Shown here: positions 17,416 through 31,513 of the stretch, piece after piece | Layout of the letters: each line of letters opens with the position of its first letter | How positions within the stretch are numbered: the stretch's first letter is position 1 | Source: Clostridia bacterium DTU068 | GTDB taxonomy: Bacteria > Bacillota > DSM-12270 > Thermacetogeniales > Thermacetogeniaceae | Direction of reading: 5' to 3' | Length of the DNA stretch: 34,687 bases | Assembly: GCA_001513545.1 (NCBI GenBank) | Contig: LFTQ01000125.1 | Span: forward strand, 1 to 34,687 | Program-made: the position numbers and the translations under genes | The notes under the pieces: model-generated | Databases searched by the model: none | What the model was told of the DNA's origin: nothing | Seen by the model: only the letters and a program-made list of their open reading frames with translations

Positions 17416-19152
17416 TTAATCTCGTATAACCAGCTCAGGTGACAGGTAATAAGTATAATTTGTTGACAGCAGTTTTCCCTGATACTTGGAGGTATCAATC
17501 CTTTTTTTGATCAGTGTACCGAAAGTTCCTGCACCGGACAGATCCCCTTGAAATATTGCTCCCACAAGGCGCCCCTTTTTATAAATGACCTTCTGATAAT
17601 AATCAGGTGATACATCTGTTTCTACCTGATAGCTGTCATCAGGAGGCTCGGGCCAGCCAAAGGAGATCGTAGGAAGGCCAAAAAAGGACATGGCATTTTG
17701 ATAGGCAAAAGTGCCAACCAGTTCAACATCTTTCCCTACCATATTCAGTCCAGCTACCTCTCCCTGCTGTACCGCGGCAGGCCATATCGGTGTGAGAGAC
17801 ACCTTCCCGGTCAAGGTTTCCAGGGTTTCACAGACATCACCAGCAGCATAGACATCAGGTATTGTTGTTCTCATCTGCTGGTCAACTATAATACCTTTAT
17901 TCACAGCAATCCCTATATCAGAGAGGGACGATATTTCCGGCTTAACTCCGGCAGCCGCAATTATCAGGTCACAGGGAAGGTACCCCTTATCATCCAGTTC
18001 TACTCCTAACACATTGCTGTCTTCATCCAACTGGATCTTATCCGCTCTTTGTCCTGTTATGATCCCAACCCCATGTGAACGAAATAGCTCCGCATAACGA
18101 GATGAAGCATAACTATCCAACTGCAAGGGCAGGAGGTGTTCCGCCTGTTCAATGACTGTGACCCTTACACCCTTTGCAACCAGCGCTTCAGCCGCTTCCA
18201 GGCCCACCAGACCACCGCCCAGAATGATAACCCTCTTGTTCGTTTCCACTGAATCAATGATCCCTTCCGCATCCTCAAGGCTGCGCAGGACAAAAACCTG
18301 CCTCCCTGAGGCAAGGTTCTCCACCGGAGGCAGCACAGGTTTAGCACCTGTCGCAATTAAAAGCTTATCATATGTTGTCTTCCAACCATCCAGTGTAAAC
18401 ACCATTTTCTGGCGGGGATCTACTGCGGTTACTTTCTTACCAGGTATAAACTCGATCCCCTGATCATCAAAAAAGTTCTCTCCGATAAAATTGAGCTGTT
18501 CTTTATTTCTGGCACCGCTGATTATATCTTTGAGCAAACAGCGCGAATAGACCAGACTGTCTTCTGCTATAACAGTGACCTGTCCCCATGGGTCCTCCCT
18601 TCTGATTGCAGCAGCACAGGCAAGGCCGGCAGCACTGGCACCGATAATGAGGTATCTTGTTTTTTCCTCTTTCCTTTCTTCTGTTCCTATCCCTTCGGTA
18701 CTATCCTCTATCTCCTCAATTGAGAGAGCTCCTGTAGGGCAGTTCTCCACACAGTAGGGCTGCTCATTTCCTATACAAAAATCACACTTTACCGCAGCCC
18801 TACCGCGGGAATCAGGAGAAATCAAGTCATAGGGGCAGGACATGACACACATCCAGCAGCCTGCACACTGTTCCTGATTGTGCAACACCAGCCCTGAATC
18901 TGAGTCCCGATACATAGCCCCTGAGGGACAGGAGATCACACAAGGAGCCTCTTGGCAGTGTCGACAGGTTAAAGGTGATGGAGCACCATCATACCCGAGC
19001 AGCACAGTATTCCGGGGTTGGTTTCCTTGATCAGTTAGATCCAAAAAATATGGTGATTTTCCTTCACTATGAGCAACCATACAAGCAAACTGGCAGTTTT
19101 TGCAGCCCTTACACAACCCAGGGCGTATGACTATGGCCTTCAAAATCCTCAC
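17416..19152 (-). CDS. CooF-like polyferredoxin fused to FAD/NAD(P) pyridine nucleotide-disulfide oxidoreductase (FNOR)
   Basis: 578 aa; N-terminal four Cys clusters (LCKGCKNCQFAC; CRHCQEAPCVISC; CAGCWMCVMSC; CDFCIGNEQPYCVENC) followed by YLIIGASAAGLACAAAI...ATGAKPVLP...VIILGGGLVGLEAAEAL...VYAAGDVCE. Confidence 0.93.
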   Translation of the reverse strand: MRILKAIVIRPGLCKGCKNCQFACMVAHSEGKSPYFLDLTDQGNQPRNTVLLGYDGAPSPLTCRHCQEAPCVISCPSGAMYRDSDSGLVLHNQEQCAGCWMCVMSCPYDLISPDSRGRAAVKCDFCIGNEQPYCVENCPTGALSIEEIEDSTEGIGTEERKEEKTRYLIIGASAAGLACAAAIRREDPWGQVTVIAEDSLVYSRCLLKDIISGARNKEQLNFIGENFFDDQGIEFIPGKKVTAVDPRQKMVFTLDGWKTTYDKLLIATGAKPVLPPVENLASGRQVFVLRSLEDAEGIIDSVETNKRVIILGGGLVGLEAAEALVAKGVRVTVIEQAEHLLPLQLDSYASSRYAELFRSHGVGIITGQRADKIQLDEDSNVLGVELDDKGYLPCDLIIAAAGVKPEISSLSDIGIAVNKGIIVDQQMRTTIPDVYAAGDVCETLETLTGKVSLTPIWPAAVQQGEVAGLNMVGKDVELVGTFAYQNAMSFFGLPTISFGWPEPPDDSYQVETDVSPDYYQKVIYKKGRLVGAIFQGDLSGAGTFGTLIKKRIDTSKYQGKLLSTNYTYYLSPELVIRD

Positions 19153-19155
19153 CCC

Positions 19156-21021
19156 CTATATCTTCAAGGCTGTTCTCTTCTGGGAGATGATGTCAATCAG
19201 TTTTGCTGCAGCTGTTTCCACATTTCCGTCTACAATAACCCTGCCGCCGGTGAGTGTTTCCAGATCTTCGGTCAGAACCTTTGTGACCATTTTACTTCCG
19301 GTTATAAAAGGCGGTTGTGCCAGATGGAGCGGCAGTCCCAGAGCCAGAGCGAAACTCCCGTCAGCCAGAGCCTGCTCTTCCAGCCACTGGGGTGCAGACA
19401 ATACCAGCGGTAGCTGAGATAAATCAACATTCTGAGCACTTGCCAAAGCAACAGCTACCTCCTCAAGCCTGCCGATACCCAGGCAGGGGCCAAAGTTTAA
19501 CACCGGTGGTATATTGAGTGATTGACAGACCTGGCGCAGATTATCTCCAGCCAATTCCGCAGCCTGAGGTGTCATGAAACCGGTATTAGCCAGCCCGCTG
19601 CTGGTGCAGCCGGCGGAGAGCACCAGAATATCTTTTTTTATCAATTCTTTAGTTAGCCCGGTTGTGAAAACATCATGGCCCCCTGCGGTAAGATTAGAAC
19701 AACCGACTATTCCTGCCACACCCTTTATCTTGCCCTCTGTAATCAGCGAGATTAGCGGTTCATAATTGCCACCCAGGAAGAAGCGCAGATTTCTCTCACT
19801 GAATCCGGTCAATGAATTGTCATAACCGTGTTCGGGCAGATCGATATTAACACCCTTCCGGCGTTCCTGATAGCTGTCAGCGGCTTCCTTTGCCACCAGT
19901 CTGGCGATAGCTCTGCCGTTATCATATGTATAAGGAATCAGTTCCGCGTTCTTTTTTTTCGCCACATCATCGATACAGATTTGTTTGATCAGCAGCTTGC
20001 TACAGACCTCTTCAATACCCGGTATAGTACAGTTAAACTCACTGACCACCAGGTCAACAGCACCAGTGCTCAGCAGAACCTCACTGGTGAAATTATTGCC
20101 TGCGTGCCCGGCAAAGACCCGCCTGCAGTGGGCATGGCGGGACTCCATATCCTGGCCGACACAGGTGCAGCCTACGATCTTGAAGCCTTTTGCTCCCACC
20201 TGCTCAGCCACATTTTTTGCCCATTCTGTGGTTAGCTCATCCTGAATCCCTTTGAAAAGAGCGTGCTGGTGACCGGTAACCATAATATTGATGTGATCGG
20301 GATCAATCACAGAAAAGCCCACCTTTGTCATGCCAATTTCCGGTTCACCGAGTATGATATCATTAAGTTTGTTGGTCAAGTACAGGCCGTAAAGTCCGGT
20401 GGCAATACCCAAACGCAGAGCATGGAGCAGCATATCCAAAGGGTCACTGGAGAGGTTTGTGCTGGTTTTGACCAAGGCATCAAAAACCTCTGATTTCGCC
20501 CCTCCTGGCATCAGATTCAGCTTCTCCCAAACAGCCAAACGAGGCTTATAAGCCAGCTTATTGACCAGAGTCATTTTCTTGCTGCGGGGCAGATAGAGAT
20601 CATGGAGAATATAATCAGCTAAAACTGTCGCCTGTTCCCTGTGGTCATCTGCTGCAGCCTGACAGATTTCCACCATTTCTTGGAGCACCTGATTGTTAAA
20701 GGTAGTGTCTGGTTCCTCTGCAAGCTTTGCCAGAGTATGGGCAGCATTCTCCACAACATGCAGATAACAAGCAGCACCTGCAGCAACGGCCCGCAGGAAG
20801 TACCTGGCCACAATGGTATCAGAATCAGCACCACACACCCCCCGTGGTGAATCGGGCAGCACACGACAAGGTCCATTGGAACAGAGCCGACAGCAAACCC
20901 CCTGCAGACCAAAACCGCATTTGACAGACTGTCTTGGTTCACGAGAAAAGGATGTTTCTACATCTGGATGATCTTTCAGAAATTTAGTAATGGTTTTGTC
21001 TGCTGAAAGACATAACCTCAT
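19156..21021 (-). CDS. cooS: Anaerobic (Ni-Fe-S) carbon monoxide dehydrogenase catalytic subunit homologue, CooS family, with atypical active site
   Basis: 621 aa; D/B-cluster motif KCGFGLQGVCCRLCSNGPCRV...GVCGADSDTIVARYFLRAVAAGAA; C-cluster ligand positions retained (TGHQH, VGCTC, EFNC, VGCSN, AGCTS, GPCLG). Confidence 0.9.
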   Translation of the reverse strand: MRLCLSADKTITKFLKDHPDVETSFSREPRQSVKCGFGLQGVCCRLCSNGPCRVLPDSPRGVCGADSDTIVARYFLRAVAAGAACYLHVVENAAHTLAKLAEEPDTTFNNQVLQEMVEICQAAADDHREQATVLADYILHDLYLPRSKKMTLVNKLAYKPRLAVWEKLNLMPGGAKSEVFDALVKTSTNLSSDPLDMLLHALRLGIATGLYGLYLTNKLNDIILGEPEIGMTKVGFSVIDPDHINIMVTGHQHALFKGIQDELTTEWAKNVAEQVGAKGFKIVGCTCVGQDMESRHAHCRRVFAGHAGNNFTSEVLLSTGAVDLVVSEFNCTIPGIEEVCSKLLIKQICIDDVAKKKNAELIPYTYDNGRAIARLVAKEAADSYQERRKGVNIDLPEHGYDNSLTGFSERNLRFFLGGNYEPLISLITEGKIKGVAGIVGCSNLTAGGHDVFTTGLTKELIKKDILVLSAGCTSSGLANTGFMTPQAAELAGDNLRQVCQSLNIPPVLNFGPCLGIGRLEEVAVALASAQNVDLSQLPLVLSAPQWLEEQALADGSFALALGLPLHLAQPPFITGSKMVTKVLTEDLETLTGGRVIVDGNVETAAAKLIDIISQKRTALKI

Positions 21022-21051: not shown

Positions 21052-21080
21052 ATAAACTATATCGTTTTGGTATAGTTTAT
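21052..21080. promoter_or_regulatory. Predicted Rrf2 operator at the cooS promoter
   Basis: Perfect inverted repeat ATAAACTATA-N9-TATAGTTTAT; on the minus strand it overlaps TTGTCA-N18-TATAGT ahead of the AGGGAGG Shine-Dalgarno of cooS. Confidence 0.8.
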
Positions 21081-21109
21081 GACAAAAATTTTTTGTGAGG
21101 GGGGATGCC

Positions 21110-21535
21110 TTATTTTGAATATTGCTTCGCATATTCCTTCAACTGCTCAAAATTGTACCTGTCAAATTCCTGAGATATGGTTTGCTGAATGGATGCAAGA
21201 ACACAGTGTACCGGACAGTGGGGTGTGGCTTGCTTATTACAATAGTCAGGGTCAATAAGGCATTTGTTGATGCGGATAGGACCTTCTACTGCTTCTAAGA
21301 CATCTCTGAGTGTAATATCAGCCGGTTTTTTCCCCAGTGAATATCCCCCTCCCACACCTTGATATGATTTTACGATCCCAACCCTCGCCAAACTGCGCAG
21401 AATTTTAAGCAAAAAGCGCAATGGTATATTCTGACTTTCGGAGATAACCTTTGCCTCAACTATTTCACCTGGCTGCAGTAAGGAAAGATAGAGAACTGCT
21501 CTGAATGCATAATCGGTTGCTTGATTTAAAATCAA
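21110..21535 (-). CDS. Rrf2 family transcriptional regulator, probable Fe-S sensor
   Basis: 141 aa, TTG start; NQATDYAFRAVLYLSLL..., wing motif VGGGYSLGKKPADITLRDVLEAVEGP, cysteine loop KCLIDPDYCNKQATPHCPVHC. Confidence 0.92.
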   Translation of the reverse strand: MILNQATDYAFRAVLYLSLLQPGEIVEAKVISESQNIPLRFLLKILRSLARVGIVKSYQGVGGGYSLGKKPADITLRDVLEAVEGPIRINKCLIDPDYCNKQATPHCPVHCVLASIQQTISQEFDRYNFEQLKEYAKQYSK

Positions 21536-21547
21536 TAAACTGCCTCC

Positions 21548-21576
21548 ATAAACTATACTTAATCAGTATTGTTTAA
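21548..21576. promoter_or_regulatory. Second predicted Rrf2 operator, at the rrf2 promoter
   Basis: ATAAACTATA-N9-TATTGTTTAA: left half identical to the cooS site, right half 8/10, same 9-nt spacer. Confidence 0.7.
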
Positions 21577-21579
21577 TAA

Positions 21580-21608
21580 ATTATAATTGCCATTTCACCT
21601 TGAGTCAA
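21580..21608 (-). promoter_or_regulatory. Sigma-A-like promoter of the rrf2 gene
   Basis: Minus strand TTGACT-N17-TATAAT upstream of the Rrf2 CDS. Confidence 0.65.
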
Positions 21609-30535: not shown

Positions 30536-31513
30536 TTAACTGGCTGTTTCCCTGATTATCCTGGATATGATAGCATCGATCTCTTCTGCTGTAAGATACA
30601 CCTCACCTTTCTCCAATTTCTTATGATATTTATCGAGTTCCTTTCCCGCTGCAGCAAGTTTCAATTTGATCTCTTCATGAGAAGTTCCTGAACAGGTGGG
30701 TACCACTACACCCTTCCCCAAATCCCATACAGTATCCCCTGATAACAGCGACAGCTCATTATAACAGCATGTTCCATTGATAACTGCCACCTGGATCTCC
30801 AGGATAAATAGCACCACCAAATCAGAAGGCTCAATAATGGAGTGATAAGCCTCCACAGTATATCTGCGGGATAGTGCCTCAACAAGGATATCATTCATCA
30901 CCACAGCTCCAGACCCTAAAGGGCCTCTAATCAGATAGCGCTTCTTACAGCACTCAAAAAAATCACAGGGGAAATTCAGCCCTCCAGAAACACTCCCGGC
31001 AAAATAATGCCTGAGGCTGGACGGTTTCTCCTGGAATTCCTCTATCCAGAAGTTTGCGCCTGAAGCACATTGTTCCGCTGCTGTGCTGCGGGTCCAGCTG
31101 CCTGAATAATAGACTTCTCTCGCGGACTTTACAAATTTGAGAACTCTCTCATATATTGTGCTCATATTATTGGGAACAGCACTTCCCGGTAGTTCCACTA
31201 TCACTGCTTCTAAATGAGCAGGAAAAAACTTCTGCACCGCATAGGGATGGTTCCCGCTCATTACACCAAACCCCTGTGAAGGCACTGTCAATCCTTCAAC
31301 CATTAAATGGTCCTCAGCCCGGTGATAATAATTAACACTATAGCCGCGGTCTGTCAGAGCCAACGCCAGTGACCGTAAAACCAGGCTGTGTGTCCCGGGT
31401 GTATTCCCCTGAAGCAGATACAACCGCTTCAACTCCTGGAAATGATCTGCCCAAAAAGACAAATAACCTCTACCTGTGAAAGCACTGGCAAAATAATGCC
31501 TGTTCTTTTTCAT
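30536..31513 (-). CDS. Tandem-domain P-loop-type protein (PRK06851-like) with degenerate Walker A motifs
   Basis: Two repeats of 'YFAxxx..G..F...L..L.R.Y.L.G.xG......L...L..R.Y.V..YH'; resembles from memory the duplicated clostridial/Bacillus ATPase with GGPGTGKST/GRPGTGKST loops. Confidence 0.7.
   Translation of the reverse strand: MKKNRHYFASAFTGRGYLSFWADHFQELKRLYLLQGNTPGTHSLVLRSLALALTDRGYSVNYYHRAEDHLMVEGLTVPSQGFGVMSGNHPYAVQKFFPAHLEAVIVELPGSAVPNNMSTIYERVLKFVKSAREVYYSGSWTRSTAAEQCASGANFWIEEFQEKPSSLRHYFAGSVSGGLNFPCDFFECCKKRYLIRGPLGSGAVVMNDILVEALSRRYTVEAYHSIIEPSDLVVLFILEIQVAVINGTCCYNELSLLSGDTVWDLGKGVVVPTCSGTSHEEIKLKLAAAGKELDKYHKKLEKGEVYLTAEEIDAIISRIIRETAS

Follow-up and report, generated by a model that had tools for sequence, protein, structure and literature searches.

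The window (the whole stretch of 34,687 nucleotides analysed in this work) carries on its reverse strand a putative operon in the order rrf2 - cooS - cooF::fnor, whose CooS would belong to group C-2 of clade C of the CODHs. The three genes encode a Rrf2-family regulator with a conserved C-x6-C-x7-C-x2-H motif, an IscR-like ligand set (21110..21535, reverse strand), a CooS-type prismane/CODH protein of 621 residues (19156..21021, reverse strand) and a CooF-like 4Fe-4S domain (the N-terminal ~160 residues) fused to a FAD/NAD(P)H oxidoreductase (FNOR; 17416..19152, reverse strand). The 621-residue open reading frame bears the clade C signature (H,C,C,C,C,C plus Tyr86/Gln550) and, in a profile search, matched TIGR01702 with 725 bits (cut-off 478). 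Elsewhere in the window, a 325-residue open reading frame (30536-31513, reverse strand) had no Pfam match at E 0.001.

The CooF::FNOR fusion was detected in the three same-genus genomes holding the operon, that of the window included, and in genome G014, CooF and FNOR being separate genes, or missing, elsewhere. The best PDB match of the FNOR was 8c0z, whose matching subunit is described as similar to ferredoxin:NADH oxidoreductases; together with the CooF/FNOR pairing, this points to NAD(P) as the electron partner. As far as the accessible portions of the two papers go, gene content and order are those of the Rrf2 - cooS - 4Fe-4S protein - FAD/NAD oxidoreductase clusters already described by Matson et al. 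in 2011 in Treponema and Clostridium (PMC3082573) and of the Group II CooS-CooF-FNOR clusters (PMC4703632), and the accessible portions of the related literature hold no CooF::FNOR fusion. At the relative locus L058 (7116-9381), a clade C gene is followed by genes for an unknown 164-residue protein and a cytochrome b-type membrane protein, with no CooF or FNOR, an arrangement that suggests another electron partner there.

The Rrf2 regulator and its candidate operators

The C-x6-C-x7-C-x2-H motif was present, with small length changes, in 17/17 aligned Rrf2 proteins, the one of the window among them. IscR uses a Cys3His ligand set of this kind. The regulator scored well under the equivalog cut-offs for IscR (66.9 bits, cut-off 207.55) and NsrR (61.2 bits, cut-off 182) and also clearly missed that for CymR, indicating a distinct Rrf2 subfamily. 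The rrf2 gene was located directly upstream of the CODH gene in 16 of the 19 relative loci examined; two of the remaining loci (L067 and L068) contain truncated CODH copies.

A sigma-70-type promoter (TTGACT-N17-TATAAT; 21580..21608, reverse strand) precedes rrf2, and just past its -10 element lies a 25-bp palindromic operator candidate, AAACTATACT-N5-AGTATAGTTT, with one mismatch (21550..21574). A second operator candidate, also of 25 bp and with three mismatches (21054..21078), overlaps the promoter-like sequence that precedes the CODH gene (TTGTCA-N18-TATAGT; 21056..21085, reverse strand). Shuffles of the window gave an expectation of 0 operator sites, and neither further sites with up to three mismatches nor matches to a reversed control pattern were found in the genome of the window. 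A wider Rrf2 regulon was considered and, at up to three mismatches in this genome, not found, both candidate operators lying in this operon. Seventeen loci have rrf2 next to the CODH gene, and by our own count both sites recurred, with up to five mismatches, in at least 13 of them; L056, which has no adjacent rrf2, keeps one site before its CODH gene. The operator spacing resembles that of IscR type-1 sites. Judged from these sequence features, the Rrf2 protein would be a dedicated autorepressor of the rrf2 - cooS - cooF::fnor operon: probably carrying a Fe-S cluster on its Cys3His motif, it would repress the rrf2 and CODH promoters through the two 25-bp palindromes and be released when the cluster is lost or modified by O2, NO, metal or redox stress. 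In the accessible portions of PMC3082573 and PMC4703632, neither the paired operators nor the Cys3His motif is described for the clusters reported there.

Active-site residues and clade membership

Residues were assigned in an alignment of 50 rows, namely the numbering reference (L086), which matches residues 1-636 of C. hydrogenoformans CODH-II (PDB 1su6) with no mismatch, and 49 other CODHs. In the window protein, His93 of CODH-II is replaced by Tyr86 (codon at 20764..20766, reverse strand) and Lys563 by Gln550 (19372..19374, reverse strand), with further second-sphere exchanges of His96 for Val89, His99 for Asn92 and Ile567 for Asp554 (19360..19362, reverse strand). All six C-cluster ligands are kept, as His251, Cys287 (20161..20163, reverse strand; Cys295 in CODH-II and Glu in CooS-V), Cys331, Cys441, Cys472 and Cys513, and the position of the Cys526 ligand is 37 residues away from Lys563/Gln550 in both proteins. 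A sequence-only reading of this DNA had proposed a CooS homologue with intact cluster ligands and with Tyr and Gln in place of His93 and Lys563, had given the same two codon positions, the same three additional exchanges and the same gapless 37-residue spacing, and is borne out by the alignment on all of these points; positions 93 and 563, for which it had left room for another His or Lys, are occupied by Tyr86 and Gln550. Two of its six ligand motifs, all correctly recognized, could be made more exact, with the equivalent of His261 being the first His of TGHQH (H251) and that of Cys295 the second Cys of VGCTC (C287).

The window protein and CODH-II thus share the six C-cluster ligands and the fold at about 30% identity, whereas CODH-II has His93, Lys563, His561 and Ile567 and lacks an insert after the conserved RH; functional Ni,Fe-CODHs of the E/F type likewise differ in possessing the acid/base His93 and Lys563 that are replaced here by Tyr86 and Gln550. 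From its sequence, the D-cluster of the window protein is of type II (C35-x7-C43C44, fitting C-(X)7-13-C-C). C4 is the sole N-terminal Cys, the extra Cys motif of groups C-1 and C-4 being absent, and inspection of the segment between Tyr86 and His251 revealed no four-Cys motif. An AF2 model of the protein (pLDDT 91.5, pTM 0.92) matched CODH structures over its full length, with Z 55.9 for 6t7j and Z 55.6 for 7b7q, and CODH-IV was matched equally well (Z 55-56); the predicted fold therefore leaves the type of cofactor undecided.

Relatives were collected within the phylum, first in 149 and later in 398 genomes. Tyr and Gln were each present in 18/18 full-length rows of the clade (the window protein and 17 further proteins at 58-93% identity), Gln was also present in two partial relatives, and the Lys563 position was Lys in 32/32 rows sampled from other clades, which argues against a chance swap. 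The retention of all six ligands in 18/18 rows, down to 58% identity, indicates that a ligated cluster is under selection. Proteins at ~40% identity had Tyr/Lys, and further sets were characterized by Asn/Lys, by Tyr/Lys with Glu for Cys295 (CooS-V-like) or by His/Lys with one Arg/Lys (E/F type). In a maximum-likelihood tree each residue set occupied one side of a branch, and the Tyr/Gln set formed one clade (SH-aLRT support 100) whose stem is long, at 1.4 changes per column, so that the pair does define a clade, a matter that the sequence-only reading had left to a tree. The tree was built by a quick method, with SH-aLRT only and from our own sample without named published clade C references, and the order among the clades is less certain than the clades themselves because long branches meet.

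That the Tyr/Gln pair might be peculiar to the window protein could be rejected, the pair being fixed across the whole clade. The acid/base pair and the relay histidines are indeed lost, as recognized from the outset, and this holds for the entire clade. The insert after RH (6 residues) is also present as initially proposed but is not special to this protein, since it occurs in all clade C and D rows and is missing from the E/F rows. As the exchange of Ile567 for Asp is equally common to all C and D rows, both features are older than the Tyr/Gln pair.

The early caution that such divergent clades may already be catalogued was justified. Tyr/Gln in place of the acid/base His/Lys is the stated signature of clade C, whose four structural groups keep every C-cluster residue according to Inoue et al. 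(2019), with groups C-1 and C-2 linked to FNOR, CooF and a NsrR/IscR-like regulator (PMC6344411). Bohm and Land (2026) found the same partners in most clade C operons (PMC13056359); with its 168 operons in the 2026 survey, clade C is one of the large CODH clades. By its sequence, the window protein fits group C-2 and is of a kind already known: it has the same CooS scaffold, six ligands, Tyr/Gln pair and type II D-cluster, no extra N-terminal Cys motif and the same linked CooF, FNOR and NsrR/IscR-like regulator, and the fusion of CooF with FNOR is the only tested feature that differs. A CODH of another kind was encountered at L118 (genome G068, contig C11): Cys333 is replaced by Asp and the Lys lies within an N-K-A motif. 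It is located beside a CooC match and resembles clade B.

Glu548 and nickel maturation

Two residues before Gln550 lies Glu548 (codon at 19378..19380, reverse strand), a residue absent from the sequence-only reading, which occupies the position of CODH-II His561, CooS-V Glu556 and HCP Glu494/Glu434. It was fixed in 18/18 clade C rows and in the clade D rows as well, the position being His or Ser in the E/F rows. Alignment to 7b7q superposes it on CooS-V Glu556, which binds Fe3 of the hybrid cluster (PMC9311411), and in class III HCP the corresponding Glu434 is the seventh cluster ligand, whereas the CODH-II equivalent His561 is not a ligand (PMC10502027). On sequence grounds, clade C thus combines the complete Cys/His ligand set of CODHs with the Glu of HCP, and has lost the Lys. 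In the accessible part of their text, Inoue et al. name this Glu for group D-1 only, and their figure may show more (PMC6344411); its fixation in clade C was not encountered in the accessible portions of the related literature and may be new, although we do not claim priority.

The protein of the window can be compared with two relatives. It has in common with CooS-V (group D-1, PDB 7b7q) the Tyr at His93, the Glu at His561, the Asp at Ile567, the insert after RH and, in the AF2 model, the whole-length fold, but CooS-V has Glu for Cys295 (Cys287 in the window protein), Lys at position 563 and one extra D-cluster Cys, and binds a Ni-free Fe/S/O cluster. With Hcp-Hcr it shares the superfamily (PF03063), the Glu of the seventh HCP ligand and a NAD(P)H oxidoreductase partner, but its match to the HCP profile TIGR01703 (23.6 bits) is far under the cut-off of 360.8, it has Cys instead of the HCP Glu in the Cys295 region and Gln for Lys, and its flavoprotein partner is of a different type. 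The genome of the window itself contains a hybrid cluster protein gene with an N-terminal FCYQCEQTAKGTGC motif (L002, contig C120), so that the organism already has an HCP. It also contains a CooS-V-like (D-1) CODH gene (L089, contig C62, 12000-15815), whose frame is broken into two open reading frames by what may be decay or an assembly error, and a second, canonical-looking CODH with the His93, Cys295 and Cys333 equivalents, cut by the contig end (L003, contig C204).

An ACS match was present in 10 of the 20 clade C genomes and missing from the other 10, eight of which (97-100% complete) were searched for all CODHs. The clade C protein was the only CODH in G351, G366 and G362, and was accompanied by a D-2 protein in G312 and by a CooS-V-like protein in G133. 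In these five genomes, all without a canonical His/Lys CODH, no CooC match was found at E<=1e-15; the genomes with His/Lys CODHs gave strong CooC matches, with the exception of the incomplete assembly of the window, which gave a weak match only. G133 and G366 were also devoid of HypB and HypA above the cut-offs, with a NiFe-hydrogenase match absent from the former and present in the latter, and one CooC-less genome had none of the Ni maturation genes tested. Five genomes are few samples, and a gene may be missing from a draft artefactually, although the assemblies concerned are near-complete; they nevertheless indicate that clade C does not depend on CooC, a result compatible with Ni loading without a chaperone as well as with a Ni-free cluster. 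Genomes lacking CooC and ACS with clade C, or clades C and D, alone were not found in the accessible portions of the related literature. A role of clade C as a mere helper of CODH/ACS was rejected as a general rule, given the three near-complete genomes in which it stands alone.

CO chemistry and proposed function

The Thermoanaerobacter kivui CooS (TkCODH-I), assigned to clade C by Bohm and Land (PMC13056359), is the one enzyme of that assignment to have been purified, and it oxidizes CO slowly. Purified with CooF1, it displayed 13.9 U/mg in the CO:MV assay and 0.5 U/mg with CO:ferredoxin, with a Km for CO of 5 uM; deletion of cooS in a CO-adapted strain lowered the CODH activity of CO-grown extracts from 178.6 to 14.9 U/mg, re-introduction restored part of the activity, and the gene was needed for growth on CO (PMC8683389). 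By our own arithmetic from Table 2 of that paper, the ferredoxin/viologen ratios were 0.04 for the CooS and 0.5 for the AcsAB preparations, so that trace AcsAB is no easy explanation for the activity of the purified CooS. According to the accessible part of the same paper, T. kivui genomic DNA was the source of the cloned His-cooS, and DSM 2030 the strain in which it was produced. The PCR primers encode RDPKCGFG and ASAPQWL, and in our 50-row sample APQWL before the Lys/Gln position, like Gln-Trp, occurred in Tyr/Gln proteins only; the primers therefore agree with clade C without proving Tyr/Gln, a state that we infer for the T. kivui enzyme. The two systems share the clade C assignment, the CooF partner and the primer-encoded APQWL motif, but no FNOR is reported beside the T. 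kivui gene, which Bohm and Land place on an early, distinct branch; they doubt that it represents clade C and consider that it may be an adapted variant (PMC13056359), an objection against which the cloning from genomic DNA speaks.

Evidence from C. autoethanogenum, in which cooS1 adjoins CooF and FNOR genes, speaks against CO oxidation in vivo: an acsA mutant did not oxidize CO although cooS1 and cooS2 were intact. Inactivation of cooS1 did, however, alter growth, which was reduced on CO and improved on H2+CO2 (PMC4895105). A transposon screen showed both cooS1 and cooS2 to be dispensable for growth on CO. The loss of His and Lys probably means slow CO/CO2 chemistry and not necessarily a different substrate. 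The interpretation given in the sequence-only reading is supported in part: a chemistry other than CO oxidation goes beyond these data, but the fixed Glu548 and the lack of CooC in genomes with clade C, or clades C and D, alone make an altered cofactor conceivable.

Sequence, ligands, clade, operon order, operators, Cys3His conservation, fusion and co-occurrence pattern come directly from the analysis; the cofactor identity, direction, substrate and inducing signal of the clade C system are what we infer. The reading that we favour, with roughly even chances of being right, is that of a slow CO/CO2 redox enzyme with an electron path through CooF::FNOR to NAD(P), encoded in a Rrf2-repressed operon. 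CO/CO2 chemistry would be kept at a C-cluster-like centre; lacking His93 and Lys563, the enzyme would move protons by other groups, for which Tyr86, Gln550, Glu548 and Asp554 are candidates, at the cost of a low turnover, and the CooF domain would hand electrons to the flavoprotein joined to it, from which they would reach NAD(P).

A possible alternative, which we consider clearly less probable, is that the active site contains an Fe-S(-O) cluster, Ni-free or hybrid-like, to which Glu548 contributes an extra ligand, and that the system is a NAD(P)H-driven reductase of small oxidants such as hydroxylamine, NO or peroxide, comparable to Hcp-Hcr. The invariant Glu548, which is a ligand at the same position in CooS-V and HCP, and the five near-complete genomes without CooC, two of them also without HypA/HypB, fit such a cluster, as do the inclusion of NO and Fe-S sensors among Rrf2 regulators and the O2 induction of clade C in C. 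ljungdahlii, cited in the accessible part of PMC6344411. However, the Cys295 ligand is kept, whereas Glu occupies this region of the site in CooS-V and HCP, and the C295E variant of CODH-II was Ni-free and inactive (PMC9311411), suggesting that Cys295 goes with the Ni cluster. Moreover, CooS-V reduces hydroxylamine very slowly and NO not above background, the organism already owns an HCP and a CooS-V-like gene, and the CO oxidation by T. kivui CooS also disfavours this alternative. In a related and equally tentative form, a mixed-ligand site of five Cys, one His and the HCP/CooS-V Glu, matured without CooC, might house a Ni-free or redox-morphing Fe-S(-O) cluster, in a NAD(P)H-linked reductase or reversible low-potential enzyme acting on a substrate other than CO and induced through a Fe-S-sensing repressor.

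It is unlikely that the protein is a scavenger or safety valve removing CO leaked from CODH/ACS, as proposed for T. kivui. The low Km for CO, the much greater acetate production from H2+CO2 by the T. kivui deletion strain and the presence of ACS in half of the clade C genomes are compatible with this role, but ACS is missing from the other half; eight of these genomes are 97-100% complete, and three have clade C as their only CODH. Leakage from CODH/ACS cannot be the general reason for the enzyme, although CO of different origin could be. That the protein is a sensor or regulator of redox state or CO, with little or no turnover, is very improbable: Bohm and Land propose regulatory or redox-modulatory roles for clade C (PMC13056359) and the acid/base residues are lost, but a pure sensor would not need electron-transfer partners, here even fused, a sensor, Rrf2, is already encoded in the operon, and the T. 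kivui CooS accounts for the bulk of the CODH activity in cells grown on CO.

For the slow CO/CO2 redox enzyme that we favour, as for its alternatives, the leads are the fixed Glu alongside a full Cys set and the organisms that have clade C as their only CODH and no CooC, while the paired operators offer an easy route to the inducing signal. The metal content of a clade C protein from a CooC-less organism would bear both on the status of this clade as nickel enzymes and on the divergence of CODHs and hybrid cluster proteins.
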